A stretch of DNA of 64,000 nt, taken from assembly GCF_010233585.1 (NCBI RefSeq), contig NZ_CP045997.1, positions 8,640,682 through 8,704,681 on the forward strand. Direction: 5' to 3'. The position numbers and the translations under genes were made by a program. Each line of letters opens with the position of its first letter. Within the stretch, counting starts at the first letter, position 1. Source of the DNA: Spirosoma endbachense (GTDB taxonomy: Bacteria; Bacteroidota; Bacteroidia; Cytophagales; Spirosomataceae). This document shows positions 6,379 through 42,762 of the stretch, in pieces. The notes beneath the pieces were generated by a model. It saw nothing but the letters and a program-made list of their open reading frames with translations, was not told the origin of the DNA and ran no database searches.

Positions 6379-6406
6379 GCTCGTATAAGGACAAGGCAAA
6401 TCACCC

Positions 6407-9649: not shown

Positions 9650-9694
9650 AATCCCTTAAACTTGATTTGGCTTTCTATAAGCGCTTACGCTTTA

Positions 9695-25033: not shown

Positions 25034-25070
25034 GTCATCACGCCCGGTTGACTACGATTCTCCGGTCAAA

Positions 25071-25113: not shown

Positions 25114-25197
25114 CAGGGTTTTTCCTGGTCGATTTTCAAGGTCTCATTTCACCCCAAAAGCGGCCATTTATCGGCTTGCTATCAGGCCTTTATTTTG

Positions 25198-26916: not shown

Positions 26917-26973
26917 GATTCTTTGTTAGAAATGATTTAGAAATAAACTCACTTGTCAAACCCGTAGGGGCAA

Positions 26974-27924: not shown

Positions 27925-29454
27925 ATGGCGAAAAATAATAAAGCTGTACAAAAAGGCCCTGATGTTATTTTAATCGGTGCCGGTATCATGAGTGCAACAT
28001 TGGGCGTGTTGCTGAAAGAATTACAGCCCGATATAACCATCGAAATTTACGAGCGGCTCGATAGCGCAGCCGCCGAAAGTTCCGATGCCTGGAACAATGC
28101 GGGCACGGGCCATTCGGCCTTTTGCGAATTGAACTATACGCCCGAAAACGAAGACGGTATGGTCGAATCGGCCAAAGCGGTTAAGATTGCCGAATCGTTT
28201 GAACAGTCGAAGCAGTTCTGGGCCTACCTCGTTCAGAACGGGTTTCTTAGCGATGCGCCCAACTTCATTCGCTCTATCCCTCACATGAGTTTTGTTTGGG
28301 GGAACGACAATGTGAACTATCTGCGTAAACGCTACGACGCACTCCAGAAAAATTATCTCTTCCACGGCATGCAATACTCCGAAGATCGGTCGCAACTGGC
28401 CGACTGGATGCCGCTTGTCATGGAAGATCGCGACCCGGAACAGCCGGTTGCGGCTACGCGCATGGAAATCGGCACAGATGTAAACTTCGGTGCACTGACG
28501 CGGGCTATGTTTCGGCGTCTGTATGACATGCCTGGGGTTCGCCTTTACTTTGCCCACGAGGTTCGCGACCTGTGGCGTTCCAAATCGCTTGGCGGATGGA
28601 AAATACGGGTAGAAAATGTAACGACCAATCAGGTTCGCGACGTACAGACCCAGTTTATATTCATCGGTGCCGGGGGCGGCTCTCTACGGCTGCTCGAAAA
28701 ATCAGATATTCCCGAAAGTCGCGGATTTGGCGGCTTCCCGGTAAGTGGTCAGTGGTTGAAATGCGTCAACCCTGAGGTTATCTCCAGACATCAGGCCAAA
28801 GTCTACGGAAAAGCTTCCGTTGGTGCTCCTCCCATGTCGGTCCCCCACCTGGACACGCGCATGATTGAAGGCAACCAGGAGCTTCTATTTGGCCCCTATG
28901 CGGGCTTTTCGACCAAGTTCCTCAAAAGTGGCTCCTACATGGATTTACCAAAATCCATTCAATTGAGCAACATGGCCCCCATGCTGATGGCGGGTATGCA
29001 CAACATCCCGCTGACGAAATACCTGATTCAACAGGTGTTACAATCGCCCGAGGATCGACTGGCGGCATTGCGGGAATACTATCCGGATGCTAAAATGGAG
29101 GACTGGGAATTAGAGATTGCTGGTCAACGCGTGCAGGTGATCAAGAAAGACGAACACGAAGGTGGTGTACTCGAATTTGGTACCGAAGTAGTCAGTGCCG
29201 CCGATGGTAGTATTGCCGCTTTGCTGGGTGCCTCACCCGGCGCATCGACTGCCGTTTCGATCATGCTCGACCTGTTGAAACGCTGCTTCCCGGAACAACT
29301 GGCAACCGAAACCTGGCAACAAAGACTGAAAGAAATGATTCCGAGCTACGGTCAGGTGCTGGCCAATAATCCGGAACTGGGCATTGCGCTTCGGAAGCAT
29401 ACAAGCGAAGTGCTGGGTCTGGGGGTGTATGAGTATACCCCAACAGAAAATTAA
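27925..29454 (+). CDS. mqo: Malate:quinone oxidoreductase
   Basis: A 509-residue FAD-dependent, membrane-associated enzyme that oxidises malate to oxaloacetate and reduces quinone, serving the TCA cycle. The FAD motif is DVILIGAGIMSATLGVLLKE (residues 13-32). Then SSDAWNNAGTGHSAFCELNY, typical of Mqo, and FIFIGAGGGSLRLLEKS, and GGFPVSGQWLKC. The C-terminal LLGASPGASTAVSIMLDLL binds FAD. Full length, stand-alone gene with a very large terminator hairpin 22 bases after the stop. Confidence 0.96.
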   Translation: MAKNNKAVQKGPDVILIGAGIMSATLGVLLKELQPDITIEIYERLDSAAAESSDAWNNAGTGHSAFCELNYTPENEDGMVESAKAVKIAESFEQSKQFWAYLVQNGFLSDAPNFIRSIPHMSFVWGNDNVNYLRKRYDALQKNYLFHGMQYSEDRSQLADWMPLVMEDRDPEQPVAATRMEIGTDVNFGALTRAMFRRLYDMPGVRLYFAHEVRDLWRSKSLGGWKIRVENVTTNQVRDVQTQFIFIGAGGGSLRLLEKSDIPESRGFGGFPVSGQWLKCVNPEVISRHQAKVYGKASVGAPPMSVPHLDTRMIEGNQELLFGPYAGFSTKFLKSGSYMDLPKSIQLSNMAPMLMAGMHNIPLTKYLIQQVLQSPEDRLAALREYYPDAKMEDWELEIAGQRVQVIKKDEHEGGVLEFGTEVVSAADGSIAALLGASPGASTAVSIMLDLLKRCFPEQLATETWQQRLKEMIPSYGQVLANNPELGIALRKHTSEVLGLGVYEYTPTEN

Positions 29455-29475
29455 TCAATAAATTCAGTATTCGTT

Positions 29476-29559
29476 AAACAGGATTGGGTTGTGAGGGTGA
29501 AGCGGTGCCTTGGTTTAGAACCGTGGCACGCTTCTCGCCCGCAACCCAATCCTGTTTTT
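29476..29559 (+). terminator. Large terminator hairpin after mqo
   Basis: Outer arms AAACAGGATTGGGTTG (29476-29491) and its perfect complement (29542-29557) continue inward as an imperfect stem of roughly 38 pairs in total, and T5 begins at 29555. The inner part contains AACCGTGGCAC (29519-29529), which also occurs in the hairpin at 46311-46387. It separates mqo from the convergent LytTR gene. Confidence 0.85.
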
Positions 29560-29578
29560 GGCGCACAGCTAACAGTCA

Positions 29579-30328
29579 CTAACCCGACAATTGCTCTGCA
29601 ACATACCGTTTATATACTTTGCCCACACGCAGCTCTTTTGCTCCAATCCAGAAAGCATCTGGCTCACTTCTGTCTACCTGGGTTATATGGACAATACACG
29701 ACCGACTAATCCGAATAAATTGTCGCTTAGGTAATCGTTCTTCAGCTTCTTTCAGAGTCAGGCGTGTAACATAGGTTTTCGCTTTCGTAATGACTTTCAA
29801 ATAGTTTTCCAGACTTTCTATATACTGAATATCCGTGTATGGAATGGCTTCCCGAACACCATCGACCATACAGGAAAAATGCCCTGATTCATCAGATGCG
29901 GGCATTGCAGGCATTATAAGTAACTCTTCCGTTTTAGCATGTATGCGCAGATAGCGATAGGTGACAAAAACGCCCAGACCCGTGATGGTGTATACCCAAA
30001 AATTGACCAGATAAGGAAGCGAACGGGAGATACTAAACTCAGTGCGAAGGACAAAATTCATGTTGAACGAACCGAGTACCATTAACAGAAAAAACCAGCC
30101 GAAGTAAAGCATTTTTTTATCCTGCAAAAACAGCCGCTCGAACAGAATCCGATTGTGAAAAACAATCCAGCCATAGAGCAGCAACAGATACAAATAAGGG
30201 GATACTTTAGAAAATCCAGGTCGCCCTTCTATTGCATAAAAGTCGGTAAGATAATGAGCAGCCAGTAATGCTGCCAACCCCAGGAAGTTGCGAACGACGA
30301 AATGATCCAGAAGTCGGGTACGTTTCAT
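29579..30328 (-). CDS. Membrane-anchored LytTR transcriptional regulator
   Basis: A 249-residue protein with about four N-terminal membrane helices (near residues 12-28, 44-60, 72-92 and 103-124) and a C-terminal LytTR DNA-binding domain (about 150-248). The domain shows IPYTDIQYIESLENYLKVIT split as usual, YVTRLTLKEAEERLPKRQFIRISRSCIVH and a final FWIGAKELRVGKVYKRYV. No response-regulator receiver domain is present, so the membrane part probably senses the signal directly or a separate kinase is absent. The gene is divergent from a multi-pass membrane protein, with a TACGTGAC dyad in the gap. Confidence 0.9.
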   Translation of the reverse strand: MKRTRLLDHFVVRNFLGLAALLAAHYLTDFYAIEGRPGFSKVSPYLYLLLLYGWIVFHNRILFERLFLQDKKMLYFGWFFLLMVLGSFNMNFVLRTEFSISRSLPYLVNFWVYTITGLGVFVTYRYLRIHAKTEELLIMPAMPASDESGHFSCMVDGVREAIPYTDIQYIESLENYLKVITKAKTYVTRLTLKEAEERLPKRQFIRISRSCIVHITQVDRSEPDAFWIGAKELRVGKVYKRYVAEQLSG

Positions 30329-30367
30329 ATGGGCAAATTACGACGCAGAATTAGTACAGTCATCAAC

Positions 30368-30414
30368 TACGTGACAAACGGCCTTCGTCACAGACAACAG
30401 CAGTTGGTCACGTA
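30368..30414. promoter_or_regulatory. Candidate LytTR-site dyad in the divergent gap
   Basis: TACGTGAC (30368-30375) and GTCACGTA (30407-30414) form an 8-bp inverted repeat with 31 bases between, in the 166-base gap between the LytTR gene and the divergent membrane-protein gene. LytTR proteins often bind paired short elements about three helical turns apart, which is near this spacing, so it may be an autoregulatory site. Confidence 0.4.
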
Positions 30415-30494
30415 AGTCTTGCATTGGCGATTTAAGCCCTCCAATTTTGACCATACTCCGATCATCACTAAAGCCGTTCGGGTAGCCATCTCTT

Positions 30495-31187
30495 ATGCAA
30501 CTGCTTCACAACCTTAACATCACCATACACGTAATATTCGGTACGATTGGCTTACTCATTGGCCTGTTAGCTCTCTTCTACCGAAATCGCTCTCAACGGC
30601 ACATTCGTTACGGCCTATACTTCCTCTATACCCTAACTATCGTTGTAGGAACCGCTTTCATTGGCATCCTCTGTTTCCGCTCCAACCCCTTTCTGCTGTT
30701 GTTAACATTATTGGGAGGGTACGTCGGTTATTCTGGCTTCCGGACTATTCGGCTTCGAGAACAGCCAGCCTCCACTATTGATCTGCTGATTTCAATAGGT
30801 GTGTTAATAACAGGCGGGATCTATCTAGGATCAATGGAACTGGCGGGTGGTAACTGGTCACCATCGGTAGTTTATCCAACCTTATCGGCATTGGTTCTGG
30901 TTGCTGGCTACGACCTGATAAAACGCTTATGGCTGTTCGACAAGCTAAAAACATGGTGGCTATACGAACATATTTATAAAATGATATCGGCCTATAGCGC
31001 CATACTTTCTGCATTTTCAGGAACGGTATTTCCTCAATACAAACCCTGTAGCCAGATTTTACCCTCAGCCCTTTGCGTCAGTGCAATTATTTATTTCATC
31101 TGGCAGCAGGCAAAAAACAGAAAAAGTGTGTCTAGTCACAGCAAGGGTTTAGGCATGTCTGAGCCAAAGCAAAGCTATAGTTCTTAA
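30495..31187 (+). CDS. Multi-pass membrane protein, DUF2306-like
   Basis: A 230-residue protein with about six or seven hydrophobic helices. The first one, NITIHVIFGTIGLLIGLLAL, contains a His, and later HIYKMISAYSAILSAFSGT contains another, giving a pattern reminiscent of DUF2306-type proteins with possible haem-binding histidines. There is no recognisable catalytic motif, and the tail (from about 205) is hydrophilic. Divergent from the membrane LytTR gene, so it may be that regulator's target. Family call is tentative. Confidence 0.6.
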   Translation: MQLLHNLNITIHVIFGTIGLLIGLLALFYRNRSQRHIRYGLYFLYTLTIVVGTAFIGILCFRSNPFLLLLTLLGGYVGYSGFRTIRLREQPASTIDLLISIGVLITGGIYLGSMELAGGNWSPSVVYPTLSALVLVAGYDLIKRLWLFDKLKTWWLYEHIYKMISAYSAILSAFSGTVFPQYKPCSQILPSALCVSAIIYFIWQQAKNRKSVSSHSKGLGMSEPKQSYSS

Positions 31188-31537
31188 CATGTCAGTAGCG
31201 TTTGATTTCTCTTGTAAGGCCCTTATTCGTAAAGAAAAGTAATTGCCATAATTGCCATTTTTATTAGAAAGTTTAGCAAGTAGCGTAGCGAGATTTTGTC
31301 AGTACGATTTTGCAGGACAGCCGATTGACCATTCTGAATTGGCAGTAGGATAACATTGAGCTATATTAGGTAAGTTACGTCTAAATCATTGGCACTATAA
31401 AGCATAGATTACAGAATTAAATGATGTAATTTTATCAAGTATTTTTAGTAGCTTATAACCCACAAACAGTTATAGGCACTAAAAGCACGTTTGCCATATA
31501 CGCAAACGAAAATTCGTTAAAGCATTTAATTTTGTAT
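31188..31537. other. Non-coding left edge of the AT-rich island
   Basis: About 350 bases without a credible gene. Base composition shifts here from the mixed composition of the flank to strongly AT-rich, which continues to about 41.1 kb. It should contain the promoter for the glycosyltransferase pair. No att-like direct repeat or tRNA was found. Confidence 0.6.
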
Positions 31538-32563
31538 ATGTACCAGGTTGTACAAACTAAAAAATGGAAAAAAGAGCGTTCACCAAAACGCATTTTAGTA
31601 ATTCGCTTGCAGGCAACTGGTGACGTTATAATAACACTTCCTTTTGTACAGCTCCTAAAAAATGAGCACCCAACTAGTCAAATTGATTTTCTGACTCGAG
31701 AAACGCAAGTAAGTATTATTGAAAATTTAGTTGCCGTTACGAATGTAATATCATTTACAAACAGCCATAAACGATGGAAGCAGCTGTTAGCATTGATCAT
31801 AATTTTGCCCAGATTACTTGTAAATAGATATGATGTAGTACTAGACTTGCAGGTAAACCGTTATTCCAGAATTATCCGACAGTTATTATTCCCAACGGCC
31901 TTCAGCGAATTTGAAAAGTATACGCCGTTACCAGCAGTCGAAAGAAATTGGAAAGCTGTTGAGAGGAGTGGCTTAGTGAAGAATTTCGCACATCCAATCT
32001 TATCATTTATTAATAATAATACGGGTGGTATAATTTTAAAAGAAAACGGGTGGAATCAACCGAAAGATTTAATTATTTTGAATCCAGCAGGTGCATTTAA
32101 AAGTAGAAACTGGCCATTAGCGTATTACGTATCTTTCGCTAGAATTTGGATAAGAAAATACCCAGATTCTCAATTTTTAATATTGGGAATAAATCGAATA
32201 GAGCTAAAGGCGAGTTCATTGAAAAAAGAATTAGGAGACAAGATGATCAACCTGGTCTCAAAAACATCGCTACCTGAAGCGTTTGAAATAATTGAAAAAT
32301 CAACGCTTGTTATATCAGAAGATTCAGGTTTAATGCATATTGCCTGGGCTTTAAAGATACCAACGATAGCCTTGATTGGTTCTACTGATAAAAATAGAAG
32401 TTCACAACCAGGGAAGCATCTTGTTACTCTAAATTCTGACGATTTACCTTGTGGTAATTGTATGAAATCTGATTGTATATTTGGAGAGATTCCAAGCTGC
32501 TTAAGTCGATACTCGCCGGAGATGATTCTAGATCTAAGCGAGAAATTATTAAAGAGGCAATGA
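31538..32563 (+). CDS. Glycosyltransferase family 9 (heptosyltransferase-like)
   Basis: About 341 residues from the ATG at 31538; a TTG six bases earlier is an alternative. GT9 enzymes move a heptose or other sugar from a nucleotide donor to a lipid-linked core. N-terminal RILVIRLQATGDVIITLPFV is the classic GT9 opening (RxxxxGDV). The C-terminal donor site is also typical: ILNPAGAFKSRNWPLAYYV, then LVISEDSGLMHIAWALKIPTIALIGST split near residues 260-290, and the Cys-containing PCGNCMKSDCIFGEIPSCL tail. It overlaps the next gene by four bases (ATGA). Low G+C like its neighbours. Acceptor unknown. Confidence 0.9.
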   Translation: MYQVVQTKKWKKERSPKRILVIRLQATGDVIITLPFVQLLKNEHPTSQIDFLTRETQVSIIENLVAVTNVISFTNSHKRWKQLLALIIILPRLLVNRYDVVLDLQVNRYSRIIRQLLFPTAFSEFEKYTPLPAVERNWKAVERSGLVKNFAHPILSFINNNTGGIILKENGWNQPKDLIILNPAGAFKSRNWPLAYYVSFARIWIRKYPDSQFLILGINRIELKASSLKKELGDKMINLVSKTSLPEAFEIIEKSTLVISEDSGLMHIAWALKIPTIALIGSTDKNRSSQPGKHLVTLNSDDLPCGNCMKSDCIFGEIPSCLSRYSPEMILDLSEKLLKRQ

Positions 32564-33678
32564 ACAAAAAAAGAATTGCAATTATTATTTATGGTGGGGT
32601 CGGTGTAGGAATCGGCCTGGAAGGAGTTGTTTGCTTAGTCAAACTATGCGAACAGCTTTCTAATGAATTTGATTTAACTGTTTTTTCGTTAGTTAAGGTT
32701 GACAGTAGTTATCAACCAATTGGTTATCAACTGATTGGAACACCATATAATGATCAAAAAGGTATTGTCTGGCGATTTTTATATGTTGGTAAAAGGCTAA
32801 TTCAATTGCATTTTAAGAAAAAGTATTCGCTGATACATGCTTTCTGGGCGTATCCGGCTGGTCTTTTAGCATTATTTCTTGGAAAAATATTGAGATTAAA
32901 AACAATAATTACGTTCATGGGTGGGGAAGTGGCCAATATACCTTCAATAGGATATGGACTATATCAATCTAAATTTAAAAAATTAATTGTCCAGCTTATT
33001 GCTAAAAAAGTCGATGTTGTCGTTTCTTTGACGCAACATCACGCGCAAAAGTTAAATGAAAATATATCTTTCAAGCGAATGGAAGTTATCTCATTCGGCG
33101 TAAATTTAAGTAAATTTCCAGCTTTAGATAAGCAGCTAGTACCTCCTTATCGATTTCTCTATTTAGGTAATATTAATAAAGTAAAGGACTTGCCTGTACT
33201 AATTAAGACGTTTCAACTTATTAATGAAAATGTAGAAGCGAGTTTAGATATTGTCGGTCTAGATACATTGAATGGTGAGATTCAACGAATAGTTAATCAA
33301 CTAAACCTAACCAATAAAATTCATGTTCATGGTTATTACCCTAACAATCAACTGAGTTTCTTTTTAAGTAAATCCCATATACTATTGCATACATCCCGCT
33401 GGGAATCGCAGGCAGTAGTTGTTAATGAGGCATTGGCCGCTGGTGTAGTCGTGTGTGGAACTAAAGTCGGACTAATTGATGATCTAGCTAATAAAATAAC
33501 CATCGCAGCGCCAGTAGGTGATGCAGATTTACTATCGAAACAAATACTTGATTTATTAGAAAATAGACAAAAATATGAAGAGCTTAAGGCTAATGGTATT
33601 GCCTGGAGTGCTAAACATGGATTGCAAATTCAATCTCAAAAATATAATAATTTGTATAATAGTTTATTGAATAGTTGA
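32560..33678 (+). CDS. Glycosyltransferase family 4 protein
   Basis: A 372-residue GT-B enzyme from the ATG at 32560, which overlaps the GT9 stop codon; the open frame extends upstream to 32473 but only inside the GT9 gene. The N-terminal half opens with RIAIIIYGGVGVGIGLEGVV. The C-terminal donor domain has FLYLGNINKVKDLPVLIKTF, LDIVGLDT, IHVHGYYPNNQLSFFLSKSH and HTSRWESQAVVVNEALAAGV with the E-x7-E region. It adds a sugar to a glycan or lipid acceptor. Paired with GT9, it suggests glycosylation of a cell-surface or secreted product. It ends 16 bases from the convergent methyltransferase. Confidence 0.9.
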   Translation: MNKKRIAIIIYGGVGVGIGLEGVVCLVKLCEQLSNEFDLTVFSLVKVDSSYQPIGYQLIGTPYNDQKGIVWRFLYVGKRLIQLHFKKKYSLIHAFWAYPAGLLALFLGKILRLKTIITFMGGEVANIPSIGYGLYQSKFKKLIVQLIAKKVDVVVSLTQHHAQKLNENISFKRMEVISFGVNLSKFPALDKQLVPPYRFLYLGNINKVKDLPVLIKTFQLINENVEASLDIVGLDTLNGEIQRIVNQLNLTNKIHVHGYYPNNQLSFFLSKSHILLHTSRWESQAVVVNEALAAGVVVCGTKVGLIDDLANKITIAAPVGDADLLSKQILDLLENRQKYEELKANGIAWSAKHGLQIQSQKYNNLYNSLLNS

Positions 33679-33694
33679 TTAATTAGGAGAAACA

Positions 33695-34486
33695 TCATAG
33701 CGGTTTTTCTATTACTATCCATTTAAAGGGACTTGCAGGCATTCCTAGAACTCTATCCCATAAAGATGGTTTACTTTTCTTGATAATGGGGAAATATGGG
33801 AGCAAATCCTGATATGTGTGATGGAAATAATAATTGGCCATATCAGGATAGCCAATTAATTGATAATATTCCAGGCTTCTGTTCTTGGCATTGACAACTT
33901 CGCCTATCTCATAAAAAGGGCTATCTAAGATATGAATTTCACCAGTTGGTTTTAAGAGTTTAAAAAGGTTATTAAAAAGTTGTCTAATAGAATGAAAATA
34001 TTGAATAGAAGAATTTAAAACAATCTTATCGAAACATTCGGTCCGAAATAATTCTGTAAAAATATCACCATAGCAGAAAAGTAAATTTGAATTTCCAAAA
34101 TTTTTCTGAGCCTGTTGTAATTCCGGCATATTAAGATCTAAGCCTAGTACATCAATTTTAGGAATTGAAGCCAATTTCGCAGAAAACCACCCATTCCCGC
34201 AACCCAAATCCAAGATTGTTAATGGTTTTTTTTCGGCAGCTACTGAAACACAAAAGCTATTAGCCGTTTGCTTACGCAAGCTCCATTCTCTGAAATGGGG
34301 AAAATCTATTGGTACATTGGGTAGATCTTTTACAATTTCATCGCTCAATAGACGATTCTCTTTCGCTCTTACCGCCAGATAGGGTAGCTCATGCGTATAT
34401 TCAGGCTTATAGCCTGAAAGCAGAAAAACTCCCTCAGCAGTAATCTTATGATCTAGATTTTGTATAATTTCTAAGAGTTTATTCAT
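33695..34486 (-). CDS. Class I SAM-dependent methyltransferase (last gene of the seven-gene operon)
   Basis: A 263-residue methyltransferase. The SAM-binding motif I is TILDLGCGNGWFSAKLA (about residues 89-105), with motif II LGLDLN (about 113-118) and FDKIVLNSSIQYF followed by LKPTGEIHILDSPFY as later motifs. About 85 residues precede the fold, with no domain I can name. The start overlaps the stop of the radical SAM gene (ATGA at 34483-34486), so the pair is made together. The substrate is unknown; the presence of a B12 radical SAM partner suggests a lipid, sugar or natural-product intermediate. Confidence 0.85.
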   Translation of the reverse strand: MNKLLEIIQNLDHKITAEGVFLLSGYKPEYTHELPYLAVRAKENRLLSDEIVKDLPNVPIDFPHFREWSLRKQTANSFCVSVAAEKKPLTILDLGCGNGWFSAKLASIPKIDVLGLDLNMPELQQAQKNFGNSNLLFCYGDIFTELFRTECFDKIVLNSSIQYFHSIRQLFNNLFKLLKPTGEIHILDSPFYEIGEVVNAKNRSLEYYQLIGYPDMANYYFHHTYQDLLPYFPIIKKSKPSLWDRVLGMPASPFKWIVIEKPL

Positions 34487-36003
34487 ACCATTGTGGCTCC
34501 TTCTTGTTCAGGCTGACGGTATTTAAGCCAAAATCGCTGGAGAAGCTTAAGCTCATAAGGAAAATAAAAAAAATTGGTATTATACCTTGCCTTCGATAAT
34601 AAAGAAACCATTTTTCGTTGTAAGTTACTCAACTTTATATCTTGTACGGTAGGATAGCGTGCATTCAATACCACTTCAAAATCTCGAATTTTATCAATCA
34701 TCTTTGAAGTGAGCCAGGGCGTTAGTGGATTTTTACGCAAATCAAAACCTTTCCATTCTTGAGCCAACCAATCTTCCAGTTTTTCTGGAAACTGGAAGCC
34801 AGTTGCTTTAACTTTCTCATATAATTCACTACCCTCAGTAAGCACGGGACTATAGACATAGATGATAATCTCAGTCAATGGATTAGCTTTCTTAACTTGT
34901 TTTATAAATTCGATATCTTCGTTAATCATCGCCATCACCTGATCAGGTGTTTCAGCGGGAAAGCCTAATACGAATGAATATTCAGGGATTATATTAAATT
35001 GGCCAAGCCTTTCGGCAAAACTAATCATCTGAGCCGCATTTTGGGTTCCGCCTTTATCAATTGCTTTAAGCATTTCCTCATTGCCAGTTTCAGCGCCTAA
35101 AAAGATCATTCTGCATCCGGCCTTACTCATATAAGCCAACGTCTCATCTGAGAACTTATCCAGGGTATCAATACGAGCCTCACCCCACCATGTAATATTT
35201 TCGGTTTCGATCAATTTGCAGAAAGCTATTATTCTTCTTTCCGACACAAAAAAATTATTATCACAAAATTCAACCGAATCAATTCCGTACTTATCTTTTA
35301 AATATTTAACATTCTGATATAGTCTCTCAGCCGATTCTCCCTTCCATCGAGCTTCAAATATTGGTACAATACCACAGAAAGAGCACGTAAATGGGCAGCC
35401 AAAACTACTATGGTATAACGTGGTTTTTTTCCCTAAATATGTTCGCCCAAAATAAGATCGTATAGGGTAAAACTTATCAAGTTCATGATATGGAAGCGTC
35501 TGTAACGAATCCATATCGATCGATGTGATTTTGCGCGTTTTAATGGCTTTATCATTTTCTTTAAAAATTAAGTTATTTATTGTACGTAAATCAAGTGATT
35601 TCTCCAAAGTATCCAGTAAAGCTGGAAATGCTAAATCGCCTATTCCATTGACAATGTAGTCTATATATCCCGACTCCATGCAAACCTGATATTGGTTGGA
35701 TGCGAAATATCCACCCCAAATAGTAATTATATGAGGATATTCTAATTTAATTTTTTTAGTAAATGGAATAGCTTGCCGCAATTGCGGGCCAGGCATAACA
35801 GTACATCCAAAATATTTAAATTCTCCTGTATCTAAGAGCGTTTTTATTTTCTTCCAGGGATCATCTTCGCGGTTTCCGTCAATTATAACAAACTCATGTT
35901 TACCATAGATCGACGCTGCAACTTGCAGGATCGAAAGCGGAATCCTGGCCTTATATTTAGTTACAAGCGGGTTAAAGAGAATGATTTTATGTTTGGTTTC
36001 CAT
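34483..36003 (-). CDS. B12-binding domain radical SAM enzyme (copy 2)
   Basis: A 506-residue radical SAM protein of the BchE-like class. Residues about 1-150 form a Rossmann-like cobalamin-binding domain (IILFNPLVTKYKARIPLSIL, FGCTVMPGPQLRQ, ITIWGGYFAS, YIVNGIGD), in which I do not see the DxHxxG cobalt-ligand motif. The iron-sulfur motif CxxxCxxC is at Cys203, Cys207 and Cys210 (FGCPFTCSFCGI). Then EFCDNNFFVSERRI, GAETGNEEMLKAIDKGGT and EYSFVLGFPAETPDQV of the TIM barrel. The last 120 residues are a basic helical tail. Such enzymes carry out C-methylation, ring closures or other radical steps. The downstream methyltransferase overlaps it. Confidence 0.88.
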   Translation of the reverse strand: METKHKIILFNPLVTKYKARIPLSILQVAASIYGKHEFVIIDGNREDDPWKKIKTLLDTGEFKYFGCTVMPGPQLRQAIPFTKKIKLEYPHIITIWGGYFASNQYQVCMESGYIDYIVNGIGDLAFPALLDTLEKSLDLRTINNLIFKENDKAIKTRKITSIDMDSLQTLPYHELDKFYPIRSYFGRTYLGKKTTLYHSSFGCPFTCSFCGIVPIFEARWKGESAERLYQNVKYLKDKYGIDSVEFCDNNFFVSERRIIAFCKLIETENITWWGEARIDTLDKFSDETLAYMSKAGCRMIFLGAETGNEEMLKAIDKGGTQNAAQMISFAERLGQFNIIPEYSFVLGFPAETPDQVMAMINEDIEFIKQVKKANPLTEIIIYVYSPVLTEGSELYEKVKATGFQFPEKLEDWLAQEWKGFDLRKNPLTPWLTSKMIDKIRDFEVVLNARYPTVQDIKLSNLQRKMVSLLSKARYNTNFFYFPYELKLLQRFWLKYRQPEQEGATMV

Positions 36004-36055
36004 ACTAGCCAGGCTGTTTCAAATTTAAAGAGTCATTTGTTGCTCGTGTTTAACG

Positions 36056-36742
36056 CTAATCTCGTTCATAAGTCAAAACGGATAGTTTGAACAAAAAATA
36101 CCATTCACCCTTGTCTTTCTTTTCCAATATTTTCTGCCATGAATATCCGCCTTTAATAGCCAATTGATTAATTCTGCCGATGTCACAATCTTCAGAAAGA
36201 ACCATAATTGCACAACCATCGCTTTCCAAGAAATTCGTCATTTGGCTAAATAACTTACTGAAATACTCAAAGTTTCTACCACAAAACCAAGCCTTTTCAG
36301 TATCATTTTTCGGATCTTTAGGATAATAAGGTGGGTTTATTAGGATCAGATCAAATTTTCTATTAGCCATATTTTCAAATAAATCGGAATGGATAACTTC
36401 TATTAATGCACTATTTAAATGTGCATTTTTCTTAACAGTATCACAAGCCAATTTACTGATATCCGAAGCAGTAGTCAAAGCACTACATCTTGCCATGCTG
36501 ATTGAAAGTAATCCAGATCCAGCCCCCAATTCCAGCGTTTTTAAGTTTTTTATTGATTGTCTCTCAATAAAGCCAAGTAGTATCTTAGTGCTTGAAAATA
36601 AAGTAGGATGGAATACTCCGCTTGGGATCACTAAGCGAAGACCATTAATTTTTATTTTTCGTTCTTTCGATAAATAATATTTAGTCACTGGAATTAATAC
36701 CCAATTACCTAAATTTTTATATATTTTTCTCAGGTAAATCAT
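36056..36742 (-). CDS. HemK-like SAM methyltransferase (NPPY type)
   Basis: Called from the ATG at 36742 (MIYLRKIYKNLGNW), giving 228 residues and a 31-base gap from the upstream gene; an earlier in-frame ATG at 36814 would overlap that gene by 41 bases. The SAM motif is TLELGAGSGLLSISMA, and LILINPPYYPKDP is an NPPY motif, which in this superfamily holds a planar nitrogen such as an amide or an adenine N6. The overall size is close to the PrmC/HemK group. However, in this operon the target need not be a protein or DNA; a nitrogen or other group on a small molecule is possible. Fourth methyltransferase in the cluster, and the only one with NPPY. Confidence 0.8.
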   Translation of the reverse strand: MIYLRKIYKNLGNWVLIPVTKYYLSKERKIKINGLRLVIPSGVFHPTLFSSTKILLGFIERQSIKNLKTLELGAGSGLLSISMARCSALTTASDISKLACDTVKKNAHLNSALIEVIHSDLFENMANRKFDLILINPPYYPKDPKNDTEKAWFCGRNFEYFSKLFSQMTNFLESDGCAIMVLSEDCDIGRINQLAIKGGYSWQKILEKKDKGEWYFLFKLSVLTYERD

Positions 36743-36773
36743 ATTATCATGTCTATTAATTTTTAATATATAA

Positions 36774-37580
36774 TCAAAACTCTTTCTTTCTAAAGGTGAT
36801 GATATAGTAATCACCCATATACTTAAAGGGAAAAATACCGCGATATTTGTCTTCTAGAAATTTTAAGGTTTTCCATAATTTAGAATACGCATTTGGAAAG
36901 GTTTCCATGTAGGAGGGCGGGACGATTGTACAAATTCCTTCAATGCTGAGCAAGTCAAAATTATTTTTTAAATTCTTTATTACAAAAGATGGTCGATAAT
37001 ACCAACACAAAAAATGGACGCCTTCTATATGTGCCTTTGCTCCTTTCTTCGCAAACAATCGGCGAAAAGCAACTTTAAAGTTTCCTCTCAGAACTTGTAA
37101 AAACTCCCATAAACAGAAGGGAGGCATTATAACTAATGTAACAATTCCATTTGGCTTTAATAAAGGGGCAAACGATGCCAGTACTTTATCGAGCTGATTG
37201 GTACAATTTAATCCTCCAAAGTTTGAAAATATTGCATCAAAAGGACCTTTAGTAGTCAAGCTAGCCAATTCTAAAAATGAAATTTGCTCATGAGTAATTG
37301 ATTTGATTAAGTGTAAAGCGGAAACTTTTTGTTTTAACTGGCGTAACATCCCTTCTGAAATATCAGTAGCATGGACTAAATAGCCTTTTCGGGCAAAATG
37401 AATGGAATCTTGTCCAGTACCAGCGTTTAGTTCTAAAATTTTGTATCCAGATTTTATATGTCTTTCAAAATGCGAACGAGTAGCTTCTCGTTTATAAGTA
37501 ACAATTACATTGTTAGCGTATGTCTCATCAAAAGAGGCAGATTGTTTGTCAAACGCCATTTTAGCTTCTTGATTTACCAT
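36774..37580 (-). CDS. Class I SAM-dependent methyltransferase
   Basis: A 268-residue methyltransferase; Met8 (MAFDKQSASFDETY) may be the true start, as that is the common opening of this group. Motif I is ILELNAGTGQDSIHFA (about residues 48-63, with Asn in place of the second Gly), followed by VHATDISEGMLRQL and FDAIFSNFGGLNC. After the Rossmann fold comes a 100-residue region rich in aromatic and basic residues (FRRLFAKKGAKAHIEGVHF, FCLWEFLQVLRGNF), which could face a lipid or aromatic substrate. Seven bases separate it from the upstream methyltransferase. Confidence 0.85.
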   Translation of the reverse strand: MVNQEAKMAFDKQSASFDETYANNVIVTYKREATRSHFERHIKSGYKILELNAGTGQDSIHFARKGYLVHATDISEGMLRQLKQKVSALHLIKSITHEQISFLELASLTTKGPFDAIFSNFGGLNCTNQLDKVLASFAPLLKPNGIVTLVIMPPFCLWEFLQVLRGNFKVAFRRLFAKKGAKAHIEGVHFLCWYYRPSFVIKNLKNNFDLLSIEGICTIVPPSYMETFPNAYSKLWKTLKFLEDKYRGIFPFKYMGDYYIITFRKKEF

Positions 37581-37587
37581 TGCGTTT

Positions 37588-38385
37588 TCAACATTTTTTT
37601 AAATTTAATGCCATTATAAGATAGCCTGCCATTATCTTTTGAGTCGGTTGATGCTTCAGATCTGTTTCTTTAAATAGTAGAAACTCTTTTTGCAGGAATA
37701 ATTTCCCATAAACGGCACCAAGAAGTGAAAATAGTTTTGATAACCATTCGTTAAAATTTTTCTTGCGTTTAAACTCCTTCAAATTATCAACCTCTTCTAT
37801 TTTCAGAATGTCAAATTGATTTGCGATTAATAACAATTTCCAATCTCTCAAATATGCATAGGTCGAGTTAGATTGAATAATACCAAATTTATCTTTTACG
37901 CGGCCATTAAACTGATGTATAGTTTCAGGCAATGTGCTTTCTAACCAGATTGTTTCGTTAAGTAGTAATTTTCCCGACGGCTTTAAGATCCGATTGAATA
38001 AAGAAATAATAGTTTGTAGTGACTCATCATCCTGTATTCCTAAAACAGATTCTACATAAATCTTATCAAAATAACTATCGGCAACATCATTAAACTGAGT
38101 TTCCACTATTTTTTCAATAACCGCCTGCTTATCTAATTGGCAAAATTTAAGTCTATCTATTGCCTTTACTATCATTAAATCTGATACATCAATACCATAA
38201 AATTTTGTTTGTTTATATCTAGATATTAGCTTTATTAACGTTGCTCCTGTACCTATGCCAAATTCTAATATTTTTTCACCAGGTTGACAGTCAAGCCAAT
38301 CTATTAGATGCTCCGTAGCCAGTTCACCTTTCGCATGAAGGAAGGACCTATGTATTTCGGCGAAATAATCTAATAGCTGGCTCAT
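37588..38385 (-). CDS. Class I SAM-dependent methyltransferase
   Basis: A 265-residue methyltransferase. Motif I is KILEFGIGTGATLIKLI (about residues 38-54), with FYGIDVSDLMIVKAIDRL and YFDKIYVESVLGIQD, and LKPSGKLLLNETIWLE as the post-motif strand. The N-terminal YFAEIHRSFLHAKGELATEH segment and a basic C-terminus recall methyltransferases acting on prenyl-lipid or fatty substrates, but this is not enough to assign one. It lies 14 bases after the first radical SAM gene. Confidence 0.85.
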   Translation of the reverse strand: MSQLLDYFAEIHRSFLHAKGELATEHLIDWLDCQPGEKILEFGIGTGATLIKLISRYKQTKFYGIDVSDLMIVKAIDRLKFCQLDKQAVIEKIVETQFNDVADSYFDKIYVESVLGIQDDESLQTIISLFNRILKPSGKLLLNETIWLESTLPETIHQFNGRVKDKFGIIQSNSTYAYLRDWKLLLIANQFDILKIEEVDNLKEFKRKKNFNEWLSKLFSLLGAVYGKLFLQKEFLLFKETDLKHQPTQKIMAGYLIMALNLKKC

Positions 38386-38399
38386 TGATTTGTCACGTA

Positions 38400-39824
38400 T
38401 TATCCTTCATTTAGAAGCATCTTCATTCTTTGATTACTTAGTTGCACTCTTATCAATTGGTAAGGAAACTTTAGCAATGATAGCATTGGCATTTTCCTCC
38501 AGCTCTTTATTGTCTTCTCTTTTTGGTAAAACCGATGTGTATACTCATATAACTGTCTATAGAACTTCGTCGAATAAGTAGCCTTGTACATCATGCATAA
38601 ATCGTCCGAATTCTCCCAGTTTCGTTTCTTTTCAAATTGGGCTTTCACTCTTTCATAAAAGCCCGTTCCCGGCAAAGGATATGAAATCGAAATCCCTATA
38701 TCATCCGGCATTAATTTCTTTACCATTAATAGCGTTTTCTGAATATCCGCCCATTGCTCACCTAGGTATCCATACTGCAAAAAGAATGCCACCTTAACTC
38801 CTTTCCGCTGTAGCAATTGAGTAGATTTTTCAATTTCTTCTATCGTAATTCCCTTATCCATTGCATCCAGTATTTTTTGAGATCCACTTTCTGCCCCAAT
38901 CCATACCTCGTCAAGTCCTGCCTCAATTAGGTCTTGAATAGTATTCTCTTTTAATAACAAATCTGCTCTCGATTGAATTTTTAACCTAATTTCTAATTTC
39001 TGCACTTGCACTATCTCCTTAAATTCCTTGACCCAGCCTGGTTTTAAGCCAAATATATCATCACTAATCCAAAAATGCGCAGCCCCTTTCTTCACTAATA
39101 TAGTTAATTCATCAACTACATTTTGTGGTGATCTGGAATTATATCGATTACCATAAATCGGTTTTGCGCACCAGTTACATTTAAATGGACAGCCACGGGT
39201 GGTAGCAATATTCAATGAAAAATATCCCTGCGATTTCATCCAAATATGCTCATAGTCGCTCAATTGAATTAAATCCCAAGCAGGAGTTGGATAAGTATCT
39301 AAAGCCGGAGTACTATTTTTTGGCTGCACACTTATTATCTCTTCTTCTTTCAAAAATGCAATACCTTTGAATTTATCAAGGTCTTTTAGGTCATTTTCGA
39401 GTATGTCTTGTAGTGTTTGCTCGGCTTCACCCAGCAAAATTATATCTGCGCCAACCTTTAGGTATTTTTCAAAGTGGTCAGTTGCATCTGCGCTATTGAC
39501 TATTATTTTACAATCTGCTGCTTTCCCTAAGTTAATTAACTCAAAACAGGCTTCTCGCATCACAGTGAGGCACATTTTGCTTAGGTAGTTAAAGTTATCA
39601 TCAAAAATTATCAGATAATCGGGTCGAAAATTTTCAAGTTTTGATTTTATTCCCAAAGTTGTTTCAACGAGGCTAGCATCAAATAAATCAACTTCATAGC
39701 CTAGTTCGCGCATTATAGCAGCGGCTAGTATTGTTCCATATGGTGGATAAGGCTTCTGCGCTTTCCACTGCTTCTTGTCAAAGCGATAAAAATAAGTATT
39801 TGCAAATAGTATTTTCTTTTTCAT
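38400..39824 (-). CDS. B12-binding domain radical SAM enzyme (copy 1)
   Basis: A 474-residue radical SAM protein. The N-terminal 150 residues form a cobalamin-binding-type Rossmann domain (KILFANTYFYRFD, PYPPYGTILAAAIMRELGY, DYLIIFDDNFNYLSKM, GADIILLGEAEQTL), again without an obvious DxHxxG. The CxxxCxxC cluster site is Cys212, Cys216, Cys219 (TTRGCPFKCNWCAKP). Later: FWISDDIFGLKPGW, VWIGAESGSQKILDAMDKG and ISISYPLPGTGFYERV, typical of the BchE/HpnR-like class. It differs clearly from copy 2 in sequence, so the two probably catalyse different steps. It follows the nucleotidyltransferase gene by 8 bases. Confidence 0.88.
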   Translation of the reverse strand: MKKKILFANTYFYRFDKKQWKAQKPYPPYGTILAAAIMRELGYEVDLFDASLVETTLGIKSKLENFRPDYLIIFDDNFNYLSKMCLTVMREACFELINLGKAADCKIIVNSADATDHFEKYLKVGADIILLGEAEQTLQDILENDLKDLDKFKGIAFLKEEEIISVQPKNSTPALDTYPTPAWDLIQLSDYEHIWMKSQGYFSLNIATTRGCPFKCNWCAKPIYGNRYNSRSPQNVVDELTILVKKGAAHFWISDDIFGLKPGWVKEFKEIVQVQKLEIRLKIQSRADLLLKENTIQDLIEAGLDEVWIGAESGSQKILDAMDKGITIEEIEKSTQLLQRKGVKVAFFLQYGYLGEQWADIQKTLLMVKKLMPDDIGISISYPLPGTGFYERVKAQFEKKRNWENSDDLCMMYKATYSTKFYRQLYEYTHRFYQKEKTIKSWRKMPMLSLLKFPYQLIRVQLSNQRMKMLLNEG

Positions 39825-39832
39825 AAATCAAT

Positions 39833-40747
39833 TTATATACATGAACTCTGTTCAATGCCTTCAAAATATTTTTTCATTATTTTAGGATATTTATCCGTAA
39901 TATGCGATTTGGCAACATGCCTTTGTAGGTCTATGTAGTAATGTGAGTATTCGAAAAGCTTCGATTCAAATTTTTTCTTTCTTTTTTTAATTGAATAATT
40001 TAAAAGCCATTTATCAAGCCAATTCCCAAAGGCATTGTTAAAGCAAAATTCAATACTTCTTTGTATGAAAGAAAAATTTTTTGAAATATCATTCTTTGGC
40101 ATCAGAGGATATTTTGGAAAATAATTATTAGTCCACTCATTCTCTTGCAGCATATTTTTGTAATAATTATATCCCAATAAAGGAATTAACGTTTTAATTT
40201 CAATTGCGGTATATAAGCTCTGCTCCTCTATTAATAGGTGTTCACTATCAATCAAATAATTGTAGCAGAAATATTTTGAGCTATTTAATAAAAATGTATG
40301 TCTGAATACACTACAAAACAAATGAGCAATCCATAGGCGTTCAGGCTCTGTAATTATAAAAAAATCAATATCACTATTTTCATCCATACAATCTTTAGAA
40401 ATAGAACCTGACAGAAAAACTGCTCTAATAAATGGAAAATGAGCTATTACCCTAGTAATAATCCTAGCTCGATTTATGAAAATATCTGCCCGCTTATTCC
40501 TTTTTTTTCTATTTTCAATTATTTTATTATCGTTATGCAACGTATAGAAATCTTCTATTAAAAATATCTTTTTCTCGCTCCTTAGATTTATTAGGCATGT
40601 TTCTAATTGACTAATGTCAATTTTCCCCCTTTCGTAAATCTCTTTTTTTGTAAGCGGATAATTAAATATATTAGCATAAACAAGGATATTTAAAGTTTCT
40701 TGTTTATGTGTACTTTGATCCACAGTCTCATTTCCTACAAGTTCCAT
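39833..40747 (-). CDS. Winged-helix plus nucleotidyltransferase-domain protein (first gene of the operon)
   Basis: A 304-residue protein. Residues about 15-75 look like a winged helix (ETLNILVYANIFNYPLTKKE, LINLRSEKKIFLIEDFYTL). Residues about 105-180 hold a DNA polymerase beta-type nucleotidyltransferase core: FLSGSISKD (Gly114-Ser115) with DENSDIDFFII, giving metal-binding Asp126 and Asp128. The C-terminal 100 residues are helical, with a very basic KKRKKKFESK stretch. It could adenylylate or guanylylate a small molecule, lipid or protein. Proteins of this kind are seen with radical SAM genes, but I know of no proven function. First gene after a 458-base AT-rich gap. Confidence 0.8.
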   Translation of the reverse strand: MELVGNETVDQSTHKQETLNILVYANIFNYPLTKKEIYERGKIDISQLETCLINLRSEKKIFLIEDFYTLHNDNKIIENRKKRNKRADIFINRARIITRVIAHFPFIRAVFLSGSISKDCMDENSDIDFFIITEPERLWIAHLFCSVFRHTFLLNSSKYFCYNYLIDSEHLLIEEQSLYTAIEIKTLIPLLGYNYYKNMLQENEWTNNYFPKYPLMPKNDISKNFSFIQRSIEFCFNNAFGNWLDKWLLNYSIKKRKKKFESKLFEYSHYYIDLQRHVAKSHITDKYPKIMKKYFEGIEQSSCI

Positions 40748-41205
40748 AGATTGTATTGAAAATAATTTACTTAATCAGAATCATGTCAAAGCGAATTTGT
40801 AGGCAAATAACTTGCCTTTCTCTCTACTTAAAATACAGACCAAACATGTGTAAAAATCATTAGGAGCTGTTCATTATTTACTCCCAATACGGAGTGACAA
40901 AGCTAAGGGTTGCGTATTAATAAAAAATTAATCCTCCTCCAAAATGTCACTTTTTTCTATATCTTCAATGCTTTATAAATGAATAATTAAAATCAATATG
41001 TTACTTTAATTTAAGTATATTATGGGTTACTCTTAATCATTGACTTATCTTTATAATTAATTACATTAATAATACCTTTATTAAGTCATTTCACGATTTT
41101 ATGACAATAACTTTAAGCACAAAAAAACATCGGACTACCAAATGGTTATCCGATGTCGAAACTAAATAAACAAAACAAAAACACAAGTACTCCTTATAGT
41201 GTCTC
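40748..41205. other. AT-rich gap with operon promoter and efflux terminator
   Basis: No credible gene in 458 bases. Its right part holds the terminator of the efflux operon (41127-41156); its left part must hold the promoter for the nucleotidyltransferase/radical SAM operon. The composition change back to that of the flanks occurs near its right end. Confidence 0.65.
41120..41156 (-). terminator. Terminator of the efflux operon
   Basis: ACATCGGA (41127-41134) pairs with TCCGATGT (41149-41156), with an inner ACCA/TGGT pairing, and the - strand continues into T7 (41121-41127). It lies 50 bases beyond the emrB-like stop codon. Confidence 0.85.
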
Positions 41206-42762
41206 CTATTCCATAACCATCTCGGTATGGGCAGACGCTTCGATTTTCTTACCAATGAACAACAGTAGCAGTGGCACACAAATCAGGAAGAATCCGCCGA
41301 TAATCAGGAAGGCATCGGCATAGGTCATAACAAGTGCCTGTTTGATAACAGCACCCTGGATTACCCCATATGCTTTACCTGTTGCCGTCATTAAGGCATC
41401 GCCCTTAGACAGAAACAAGCCCGTATATTGACGAATTCGGTCAACTGATAATGGATTGTAGATGGATACATTATCCGACAATCGTGACGCATGAAATACG
41501 GTCCGTGTTGATATATACGTTGTCATGATGGCGGTTCCGAAAGTTCCGCCTAACTGACGAATCATACCTGTGAGAGCCGAGCCCTGAGGAATTTCAATGT
41601 TTTTCAGATCAGCCAGGGTTATGGTTGTCAGCGGAATAAAAATCAACCCCATACCAACACCCCGAATAATGAGTGGCCAGAAGAAATAATCGGGACCAGC
41701 CTCCAGGCTAATTGCCGACAAATCGAAACAGAATCCGAAGAACATCAGAAAACCAATGGCGGCATACCAGATTGGCGAGATGTAGTTTTTACTAAGCAAC
41801 CCGCCAACAACGGGCATCATTAAACCCGTTGCAATTGAACCCGGCATTAGCAATAATCCGGTCTGGCTGGCAGTGAACCCCAGAATGGTCTGGCAGAAAA
41901 CCGGAATGATAAAGACGGATGCAAACAGCCCAAAACCCAGGATAAAGTTAAACAATGTACCAACCGCAAATCGACGCTGGAGCAGTAGTCTCAAGTCGAG
42001 TATGGGCAGTTTTACGGCAAGTTGCCGCCAGATAAACCCAATCAGGCCAACAGCAGCGGCAATAGACATGCCTACAATGAAACTCGAATCGAACCAGTCT
42101 TTTTCCTCGCCTTTTTCCAGAATAATTTGTAAGCCACCGATTCCCATCGTCAGGAGTATCAGGGCCAGCCAGTCCATCTTACCCGCCACCATCTTCTCGG
42201 CGGGTTCTTTAATGTAGGTGTACGTTAGGAATGTGGCCAGTATTCCAAACGGAATATTGATGTAAAATACCCAGTTCCACGACAGGTTGTCGGTAATGTA
42301 TCCGCCAAGAGTTGGTCCAATTGAGGGACCAATGATGACCCCCATCCCGAAGATCGCGTTGGCAATGCCCAGATCTTCTTTCGGGAAGGTCTGAATCAGA
42401 ATGGATTGGGCTGTTGTTAGCAAACCTCCTCCACCGATACCCTGTACAACCCGGAAAAAGACCAGTTCCCAAACGTTGGTCGAGGTACCACAAAATACCG
42501 ATGCAACCGTAAAGAGAATAATCGAAGCGGCAAAATAATTCCGGCGACCCAGTTTGGCTGTCAGCCAGCCCGACATGGTGATCATCACGGCACTGGCAGC
42601 TGCATACCCCGTAACAACCCAGCTAATATCGCCCAGTGATGCGCCGAGATTGCCCATCATCTGGTTCAGCGTAACGTTAACAATCGATGAGTCAATTGTT
42701 TGCAATAGGGCGGCTGTCGTTACCGTAAGTACGACGATCCATTTATCAAATCCTAACTTCAT
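41206..42762 (-). CDS. emrB: DHA2-family MFS multidrug efflux protein (EmrB/QacA-like)
   Basis: A 518-residue inner-membrane exporter with about fourteen helices. Family motifs: TIDSSIVNVTLNQMMGNL (helix 1, motif D1), AAASAVMITMSGWLTAKLGRR (motif A region), FFRVVQGIGGGGLLTTAQSI (motif B), and GPSIGPTLGGYITDNLSWNW (motif C). It pumps hydrophobic compounds with protons, linked by the HlyD-like protein and TolC to the outside. Last gene of marR-tolC-emrA-emrB. The 107-base gap in front holds a 15-bp inverted repeat. Confidence 0.94.
   Translation of the reverse strand: MKLGFDKWIVVLTVTTAALLQTIDSSIVNVTLNQMMGNLGASLGDISWVVTGYAAASAVMITMSGWLTAKLGRRNYFAASIILFTVASVFCGTSTNVWELVFFRVVQGIGGGGLLTTAQSILIQTFPKEDLGIANAIFGMGVIIGPSIGPTLGGYITDNLSWNWVFYINIPFGILATFLTYTYIKEPAEKMVAGKMDWLALILLTMGIGGLQIILEKGEEKDWFDSSFIVGMSIAAAVGLIGFIWRQLAVKLPILDLRLLLQRRFAVGTLFNFILGFGLFASVFIIPVFCQTILGFTASQTGLLLMPGSIATGLMMPVVGGLLSKNYISPIWYAAIGFLMFFGFCFDLSAISLEAGPDYFFWPLIIRGVGMGLIFIPLTTITLADLKNIEIPQGSALTGMIRQLGGTFGTAIMTTYISTRTVFHASRLSDNVSIYNPLSVDRIRQYTGLFLSKGDALMTATGKAYGVIQGAVIKQALVMTYADAFLIIGGFFLICVPLLLLFIGKKIEASAHTEMVME

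Follow-up and report, generated by a model that had tools for sequence, protein, structure and literature searches.

An AT-rich island of nine genes in Spirosoma endbachense carries a nucleotidyltransferase (NT) and a radical SAM protein (RS2) that are found together across Bacteroidota and Ignavibacteria. The conserved core of these loci is formed by NT, RS2 and, less strictly, the methyltransferase MT3, and its frequent partners are a second radical SAM protein (RS1) and the methyltransferases MT1 and MT2. We propose, with about even confidence for and against, that the island is the Spirosoma copy of a widespread and apparently unnamed Bacteroidota/Ignavibacteria module that tailors a sugar-containing molecule destined for the cell surface or for secretion.

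Organization of the Island

Within the window, the 64,000-nucleotide stretch of DNA that was analyzed, an ORF scan and Pfam searches recover nine intact open reading frames: a GT9-GT4 glycosyltransferase pair on the + strand, followed by seven genes on the - strand (Table 1). The initial annotation had described the latter as a single operon faced by the glycosyltransferase pair, and both statements agree with the ORF coordinates. From MT1 to NT, the - strand genes are separated by gaps of -4, 52, 31, 7, 14 and 8 bases, and GT4 and MT1 converge with 16 bases between their ends. An alternative GTG start of MT2 at 36814 would create an overlap with MT3, giving a gap of -41 instead of 31. No Rfam RNA or riboswitch reaches its gathering score in the 27-45 kb interval. 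Terminator-like sites number 9 versus 5.7 expected, and promoter-like sites are uninformative (46 found versus 45.7 expected).

Table 1. Genes and boundaries of the island, in window coordinates
Feature	Position	Strand	Description
GT9	31538..32563	+	glycosyltransferase family 9, heptosyltransferase-like; PF01075 (Glyco_transf_9) 2.3e-22
GT4	32560..33678	+	glycosyltransferase family 4; PF00534 (Glycos_transf_1) 1.1e-23; ATG inside longer ORF
MT1	33695..34486	-	class I methyltransferase, BioC-like below cut-off; PF13847 6.5e-17
RS1	34483..36003	-	radical SAM, N-terminal B12-binding-type domain; PF04055 7.6e-13; CX3CX2C at residue 203
MT2	36056..36742	-	NPPY-type methyltransferase; PF05175 1e-15; ATG start
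MT3	36774..37580	-	class I methyltransferase, third member of conserved core; PF13649 1.9e-13
MT4	37588..38385	-	class I methyltransferase; PF13649 8.5e-11
RS2	38400..39824	-	radical SAM (Radical_SAM 3e-21), B12-binding-type domain; CX3CX2C at residue 212; core
NT	39833..40747	-	winged helix + KNTase-like nucleotidyltransferase; Polbeta/NTP_transf_2 8e-6, 2e-5; core, first gene of operon
Island	31188..41205	.	between membrane-protein gene 30495-31187 and MFS gene 41206-42762; different genes here in relatives

Distribution of the Core Genes

In a sample of 395 genomes, NT occurs in 30, RS2 in 27 and RS1 in 17, and at the thresholds used these occurrences are nested, such that no RS2 is found without NT and no RS1 without RS2. 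Although loci anchored on NT supplied the RS2 and RS1 profiles, the searches of the 395 genomes could have picked up copies lacking NT, and none is found at E≤1e-80. After the duplicates L095, L098, L099 and L134 were dropped, RS2 proved to be adjacent to NT or no more than 3.2 kb away in 88 of 100 NT loci, which bears out the expectation that the genes co-occur in other genomes. Specifically, RS2 lies beside NT on the same strand in 67 loci, and on the opposite strand within 3.2 kb in 21. The gap between the two genes is negative in 52 of the 67 same-strand loci, a count in which overlap is inflated by the use of the most upstream starts; the ORFs of relatives were called by a simple longest-ORF script. 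Loci L041, L047 and L141 yield no NT call above 50 bits, though the first two had earlier been kept as NT relatives.

Ten NT loci from species genomes lack RS2. Eight of the genomes carry RS2 elsewhere, two only in part, and G593 and G595 have NT with no RS2 found anywhere in the genome. Another genome, G173, has one locus with everything except RS2, plus a second NT-RS2 pair. MT3 is present in 80 of the 88 RS2 loci, MT1 in 31 and MT2 in 19, and MT4 is matched at E≤1e-10 in L094 alone among 87 loci (a set that leaves out the 20 loci L131-L150) and also in L244, so that it is confined to Spirosoma within the loci covered. Thus, the four methyltransferases on which the initial annotation had remarked are indeed four class I enzymes in the window, but the foursome is not a conserved unit. 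In a 200-genome family sample, GT9 has relatives at E≤1e-60 in exactly five genomes, namely the Spirosoma genomes that bear RS2. Relatives of GT4 at E≤1e-10 occur in 15 of 87 loci when duplicates are counted.

Radical SAM Proteins and Nucleotidyltransferase

Both radical SAM proteins of the window have a Radical_SAM domain and a CX3CX2C motif, which is kept in 73 of 73 RS2 relatives and 35 of 36 RS1 relatives; mean column identity of RS1 is 67% over 18 sequences. The B12-binding domain falls below the Pfam cut-off of 32.1 bits in both window proteins (31.9 bits for RS1 and 16.4 bits for RS2), and in the alignments it is detected at E≤0.01 in all 18 RS1 sequences and in 20 of 22 RS2 sequences. 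Of the earlier designation of two B12 radical SAM enzymes, the radical SAM part holds, and use of B12 by RS1 and RS2 is no more than plausible, given that the best structural match of RS2 is an enzyme not known to need it. MetH is encoded in all 27 of the RS2-bearing genomes, the set that was checked, and therefore these hosts use B12.

Neither protein reaches an NCBIfam cut-off, among the 21 families listed for RS1 and 25 of the 38 matches for RS2. Membership of the named radical SAM families listed was rejected because the scores of RS2 and RS1, respectively, are far below the curated cut-offs for BchE (127 and 110 bits versus 481), HpnJ (112 and 92 bits versus 578), the ladderane-associated TIGR04072 (97 and 41 bits versus 360) and AprD4 (48 and 64 bits versus 500). 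The initial annotation knew of no named pathway for this gene set, and none emerges among the families listed; no published description was found either, in a search of open-licence PMC text that constitutes weak evidence of absence.

Among the fold matches listed, the RS2 model is closest to AprD4, OxsB and MgmA. The best structural match, AprD4, is a radical SAM 1,2-diol dehydratase of apramycin biosynthesis that is not known to need B12, and it is set apart from RS2 by an identity of only 15% in the fold alignment. RS2 shares the two-domain B12 radical SAM architecture of OxsB and of the methyl-coenzyme M reductase glutamine methylase MgmA, its best PDB sequence match (9ccb, 5e-21). However, MgmA acts on a protein glutamine, and TIGR04014 is scored at 112 bits versus a cut-off of 360. 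The substrate of OxsB is a nucleotide.

The NT model consists of a winged helix and a kanamycin-nucleotidyltransferase-like domain resembling ANT(4'')/KNTase, among the fold matches listed. A polymerase-beta-like nucleotidyltransferase fold with GS and DxD motifs is present, and residues S113, G114, D126 and D128 are invariant in 35 sequences; a PDB search with the NT profile returned three chance-like matches only (E 0.28 and up). NT differs from aminoglycoside nucleotidyltransferases of the kanamycin/ANT(4'') type in sitting in a biosynthetic operon and in carrying an N-terminal winged helix, which may have a regulatory role through nucleic acid binding or a purely structural one. In MT2, the NPPY motif is kept in 18 of 18 relatives.

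In fosfomycin biosynthesis, the B12 radical SAM methylase Fom3 acts on a substrate that has been nucleotide-tagged by the cytidylyltransferase Fom1, according to PMC8158854. There, as here, a nucleotidyltransferase shares its pathway with a class B radical SAM enzyme, which provides a precedent for a nucleotide handle. In contrast, Fom1 tags a phosphonate and its fold differs from the KNTase-like domain of NT. A fosfomycin-type phosphonate pathway was rejected, as PEP mutase exceeds its cut-off in 0 of the 27 RS2 genomes, with weak matches in 6.

Glycan Genes near the Core

Glycosyltransferases make up at least 24 of 130 neighboring ORFs versus at least 5 of 130 control ORFs (Fisher p 0.0003), the control count being a lower bound among the 25 families listed. 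When Spirosoma's own GT9 and GT4 are removed, 21 of 130 neighbors compare with the same control minimum (p 0.0015), and if the controls held 10 glycosyltransferases, the values would be 0.016 (for 24) and 0.054 (for 21). Control stretches were chosen by hand in 18 of the genomes that supplied the neighbors, 130 ORFs were used per side of 181 and 210, and the counts are summed family totals that assume one such family per protein.

Neighbor genes in other loci encode Wzy_C, Bac_transf, GT87, an ABC exporter, a weak EpsG match and a polysaccharide deacetylase, and genes of the Wzy, initiating-transferase and ABC-export types adjoin the core in several lineages. The Mucilaginibacter, Chitinophagaceae and Fulvivirga loci of the core share such neighbors with Wzy-type O-antigen/exopolysaccharide clusters, whereas the nine proteins of the window island include neither a polymerase nor a flippase nor an initiating transferase (Pfam). 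A GT9-GT4 pair also faces MT3-RS2-NT in a distant locus, L138. Two NT-RS2 loci, L139 and L142, have no glycosyltransferase among the three scanned neighbors of each, and no tag-removing phosphodiesterase is found in the 20 of 37 recurrent neighbor families that were scanned.

Origin of the Spirosoma Copy

The sharp compositional departure of the 31-41 kb region from both flanks, which the initial annotation took to suggest transfer, is evident by each measure used. GC content is 0.342 over 31532-40747 versus 0.492 (1-31187) and 0.470 (41206-64000), 2-kb windows range from 0.317 to 0.366 within 31-41 kb versus 0.425-0.536 wholly outside 30-43 kb, and GC3 is 0.24-0.34 in the nine island genes versus 0.43-0.58 in four flanking genes. 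This AT-richness is strongest in Spirosoma-type loci. Elsewhere the gene set is resident, as core genes differ in GC from their neighbors by a median of -0.4 points over 104 loci.

RS2 is patchily present, in 5 of the 34 Spirosoma genomes that form the same-genus part of the family sample. Spirosoma copies occupy four or more sites, and three copies share one site. The slot contents differ in G149, where two other genes fill 3.3 kb (L213), and in G155 and G173, and G167 is 93% identical over window positions 23409-31184 and departs thereafter. The unusual base composition, the scattered occurrence and the different filling of the slot in kin all fit a horizontally acquired island. No integrase was found among the nine island proteins (Pfam) and no tRNA near the island, and 30900-41400 contains short chance-like repeats only. 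Plasmid carriage was rejected, with no RS2 tblastn match at E≤1e-40 among 72,556 plasmids.

The RS2 tree mostly tracks host taxonomy, with the Spirosoma sequences clustering with Runella and a Cytophagaceae genome, and a near donor is therefore likelier than a distant one. The Spirosoma copy was probably acquired from an AT-rich donor belonging to its own family. Because three Spirosoma copies occupy one site, inheritance with loss and relocation may also account for the pattern.

A Possible Sugar-Tailoring Pathway

In the proposed module, NT would attach a nucleoside monophosphate at a hydroxyl group of a sugar unit or precursor, and this nucleotide tag would serve as the handle for RS2. The radical chemistry of RS2 would be a C-methylation, or a diol dehydration or rearrangement, and RS1 may make a second radical change. 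MT3 and the optional methyltransferases would add O- or N-methyl groups, MT2 presumably on planar nitrogen, and GT4 and GT9 would pass the unit to a glycan or glycolipid of the cell surface. A bolder version, which we offer tentatively and as rather less than probable, is a phylum-wide pathway in which a KNTase-like enzyme tags a sugar with a nucleotide and B12 radical SAM partners rebuild its carbon skeleton, so that Bacteroidota and Ignavibacteria would make an undescribed class of surface sugars with C-methyl groups or a rearranged skeleton.

The product might instead be a small soluble metabolite outside any polymer (an aminosugar, nucleoside or thiol-like compound), either kept or secreted; the glycosyltransferases would then build it, and the nucleotidyl group would be permanent or protective. 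Similarity to enzymes of aminoglycoside chemistry is seen in both NT (ANT(4'')) and RS2 (AprD4), the seven genes of L131, a compact operon of the Ignavibacteria type, include a single glycosyltransferase and no membrane gene, and the best NCBIfam score of the window GT4 is with BshA, albeit below cut-off. We nevertheless consider this outcome unlikely, given the recurrent Wzy_C, Bac_transf, GT87 and ABC neighbors and the weak EpsG match. The initial annotation had proposed a lipid product, but modification of a membrane lipid or of a hopanoid-like compound appears improbable: the HpnJ and TIGR04072 matches that favor it score well under the curated cut-offs, and the 20 scanned of the 37 recurrent neighbor families include no lipid or isoprenoid gene, barring one of acetyl-CoA-synthetase type that 11 loci carry on the other strand. 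The glycan neighbors agree with the glycosylated part of the surface-lipid suggestion drawn from GT9 and GT4, and no island gene supports the lipid.

There is a similarly small chance that a nucleic acid or protein is modified. The winged helix of NT, the NPPY methyltransferase and a MiaB-like fold would suit RNA, DNA or a peptide, whereas the presence of the genes is patchy (27 of 395 genomes), their neighbors are glycan genes, and the MiaB-type fold matches of RS2 rank below AprD4 and OxsB. Finally, the island occupies a variable slot, as might be expected if its genes were assembled by chance and had no joint function. This last explanation is very improbable and was rejected on the nested co-occurrence of NT, RS2 and RS1 across the phylum; moreover, G188 carries the identical nine genes in identical order.

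Implications

B12 radical SAM enzymes carry out reactions that are within reach of few other enzymes. Uncharacterized members far outnumber characterized ones, as stated in PMC8992657. The strict, phylum-wide co-occurrence of two radical SAM proteins with a nucleotidyltransferase provides a testable idea of how a substrate handle might be used. The chemistry may be frequent, because the RS1 profile by itself has matches at E≤1e-60 in 6347 of 7999 scored protein clusters, some of which may be paralogues outside such gene clusters. Should the product prove to be a surface sugar, the module could bear on phage receptors, biofilm formation and host contact.

Recurrent linkage of NT and RS2

The nucleotidyltransferase of the island, with a winged helix and a KNTase-like fold (NT), usually resides next to a radical SAM protein with a B12-binding-type domain (RS2). 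A search of 5.8 billion proteins yielded 93 NT relatives, from Bacteroidota wherever the organism is named, and 359 places encoding one turned up across 84,980 scanned species genomes. The best 80 of these 359 (with 10-kb flanks where the contig permits) and 27 stretches from whole genomes, minus four duplicates, gave 103 loci, 100 with an NT call above 50 bits. In 67 of these 100 loci, RS2 directly adjoins NT on the same strand; in 21, it lies on the opposite strand, at most 3.2 kb away. Thus, the neighborhood search that the initial annotation called for links NT with RS2 in 88 loci. RS2 is absent from the fetched stretch in the other 12, ten of which come from the species-genome scan; eight of those ten genomes carry RS2 elsewhere (two of the eight in part only), and no RS2 was found in the other two. 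The remaining two of the 12, L146 (genome G322) and L147 (G311), and a third genome have only a weak NT match and yielded no RS2; the relatives at L146 and L147 possibly represent another use of the NT fold. Three Mucilaginibacter genomes have NT as the last gene of a glycan operon that includes Wzy, and a separate operon elsewhere reads RS1-SPASM-RS2-MT3, where RS1 resembles RS2 in domain type and MT3 is a class I methyltransferase. In 10 loci (L048, by Pfam, L053 and L058 among them), NT is preceded by a DNA polymerase I gene of the same orientation, and this position is a stable chromosomal address, unlike that in Spirosoma.

Gene presence is nested. Of 395 phylum genomes, 30 carry NT, 27 carry RS2 and 17 carry RS1; no genome has RS1 without RS2 or RS2 without NT, and the NT matches of the three NT-only genomes are weak. 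Among 200 family genomes, RS2 occurs in eight, including five of the 34 from the genus of the window (its own genome among them), and close relatives of the glycosyltransferase GT9 occur in exactly those five. In one of these, G173, the set is split: locus L244 carries NT, MT4, MT3, MT2, RS1, MT1, GT4 and GT9, with only RS2 missing, and L095 carries NT-RS2. Each locus has its own NT.

Partner genes and a probable glycan setting

Column identity averages 42% for NT (35 sequences), 60% for RS2 (22) and 67% for RS1 (18), which suggests a constant substrate. The 88 RS2 loci include, as lower bounds because some end at contig edges, MT3 (80), MT1 (31) and MT2 (19); RS1 (40), the RS2 paralogue RS3 (31) and a SPASM radical SAM protein (23); and an ABC exporter (23), GT87 (20), Wzy (14) and Bac_transf (13). 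A recurrent 325-aa neighbor (cluster c21), with only a weak flavin-reductase match, is a possible electron donor.

In 18 genomes, at least 24 of the 130 ORFs lying no more than 8 kb from NT-RS2 (core families left out) encode glycosyltransferases, versus at least 5 of 130 control ORFs from other stretches of the same genomes (Fisher p 0.0003; 0.0015 without three that are Spirosoma's own GT9/GT4 relatives); were the control count 10, these values would be 0.016 and 0.054. GT2, GT4, GT87, Wzy_C, Bac_transf and ABC exporter genes recur nearby; one neighbor matches EpsG weakly, and G155 has a polysaccharide deacetylase. The arrangement seen in the window, GT9-GT4 facing MT3-RS2-NT, reappears at locus L138, which comes from a distant family within the phylum; there, a cytidine-deaminase-like gene separates the two groups. 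Enrichment, recurrence and this arrangement favor a glycan product; against it, none of the three neighbors scanned at each of L139 and L142 is a glycosyltransferase.

In fosfomycin synthesis, according to PMC8158854, a cytidylyl tag precedes B12 radical methylation and is hydrolysed later. NT and RS2 are proposed to work alike. By this analogy, NT would place a nucleotide tag on a sugar hydroxyl, and the tagged sugar would be the substrate of RS2. MT3 might then methylate the product, RS1 and other enzymes might complete it, and GT4/GT9 could transfer the finished sugar. Gene linkage, folds and motifs are what we observe; every chemical step we infer.

The constituent enzymes are of known kinds, and the cluster is classed with radical-SAM tailoring clusters. 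The initial annotation knew of no named pathway with this set, and in agreement we found no description of it in the literature searched; as far as we found, this stable unit of NT, RS2 and MT3, together with RS1, has no name.

The island and its origin

The host genome is a single 10.33-Mb contig whose close relatives are Spirosoma. Nine intact ORFs, their protein classes borne out by Pfam, fill the slot between a membrane-protein gene and an MFS gene: GT9 and GT4 on the + strand, then, counted down from 40747, NT, RS2, MT4, MT3, MT2, RS1 and MT1. Base composition is, as first noted, sharply unlike both flanks (GC 34.2% versus 49.2% and 47.0%; GC3 24-34% versus 43-58% in four flanking genes). 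The window's sole tRNA gene lies far from the island.

Coordinates of features in the window and in compared loci
Sequence	Feature	Coordinates	Strand
Window	Identity of 93% to G167	23409-31184	
Window	Membrane-protein gene, end	31187	
Window	Low-GC stretch	31532-40747	
Window	NT to MT1 genes	downward from 40747	-
Window	MFS gene, left edge	41206	
Window	tRNA-Ser (GGA)	54243-54331	
L208	Compared stretch for the variable slot	8343-9926	
L138	GT9-GT4 arrangement	4478-6731	+
L031	325-aa neighbor (c21)	12197-13174	

This slot, 31188-41205 of the window, is variable within Spirosoma. G149 holds two other genes there (3.3 kb), and G173 and G155 hold more. G167 diverges directly past the membrane-protein gene and is not among the RS2 matches in the 200 family genomes; short ORFs next to its left flank resemble transposase pieces by eye. 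DNA comparison shows common flanks for the copies in G155 and G194 and the NT-RS2 pair of G173, which therefore occupy one site. The window, the copy in G188 and the larger locus of G173 have nothing in common outside the cluster, so that the sites number four or more.

In a tree of 87 RS2 rows, Spirosoma groups with Runella and then with a Cytophagaceae genome (support 100/94 and 100/100), and most other clades mirror host families. L014, recorded as Flavobacterium sp. SUN052, falls within the Spirosoma clade, and its neighboring genes have 48.8% GC; either the gene was transferred recently or the record bears the wrong name. The RS2 sequences of L059 (uncultured Bacteroides) and L038 (uncultured Chitinophaga) are nearly identical to those of Ohtaekwangia (L033) and UBA5867 (L032), which suggests misassigned bins.

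Transfer, which the initial annotation read from base composition, accords with the deviant GC, the patchy presence and the differing slot in kin. However, low core GC is most marked in Spirosoma-type loci, with a median difference from neighbors near zero over 104 loci, and the RS2 tree is mostly host-like. Taken together, slot contents, patchy presence, sites and tree therefore indicate a pathway that is old in the phylum and that moves or relocates inside Spirosomataceae.
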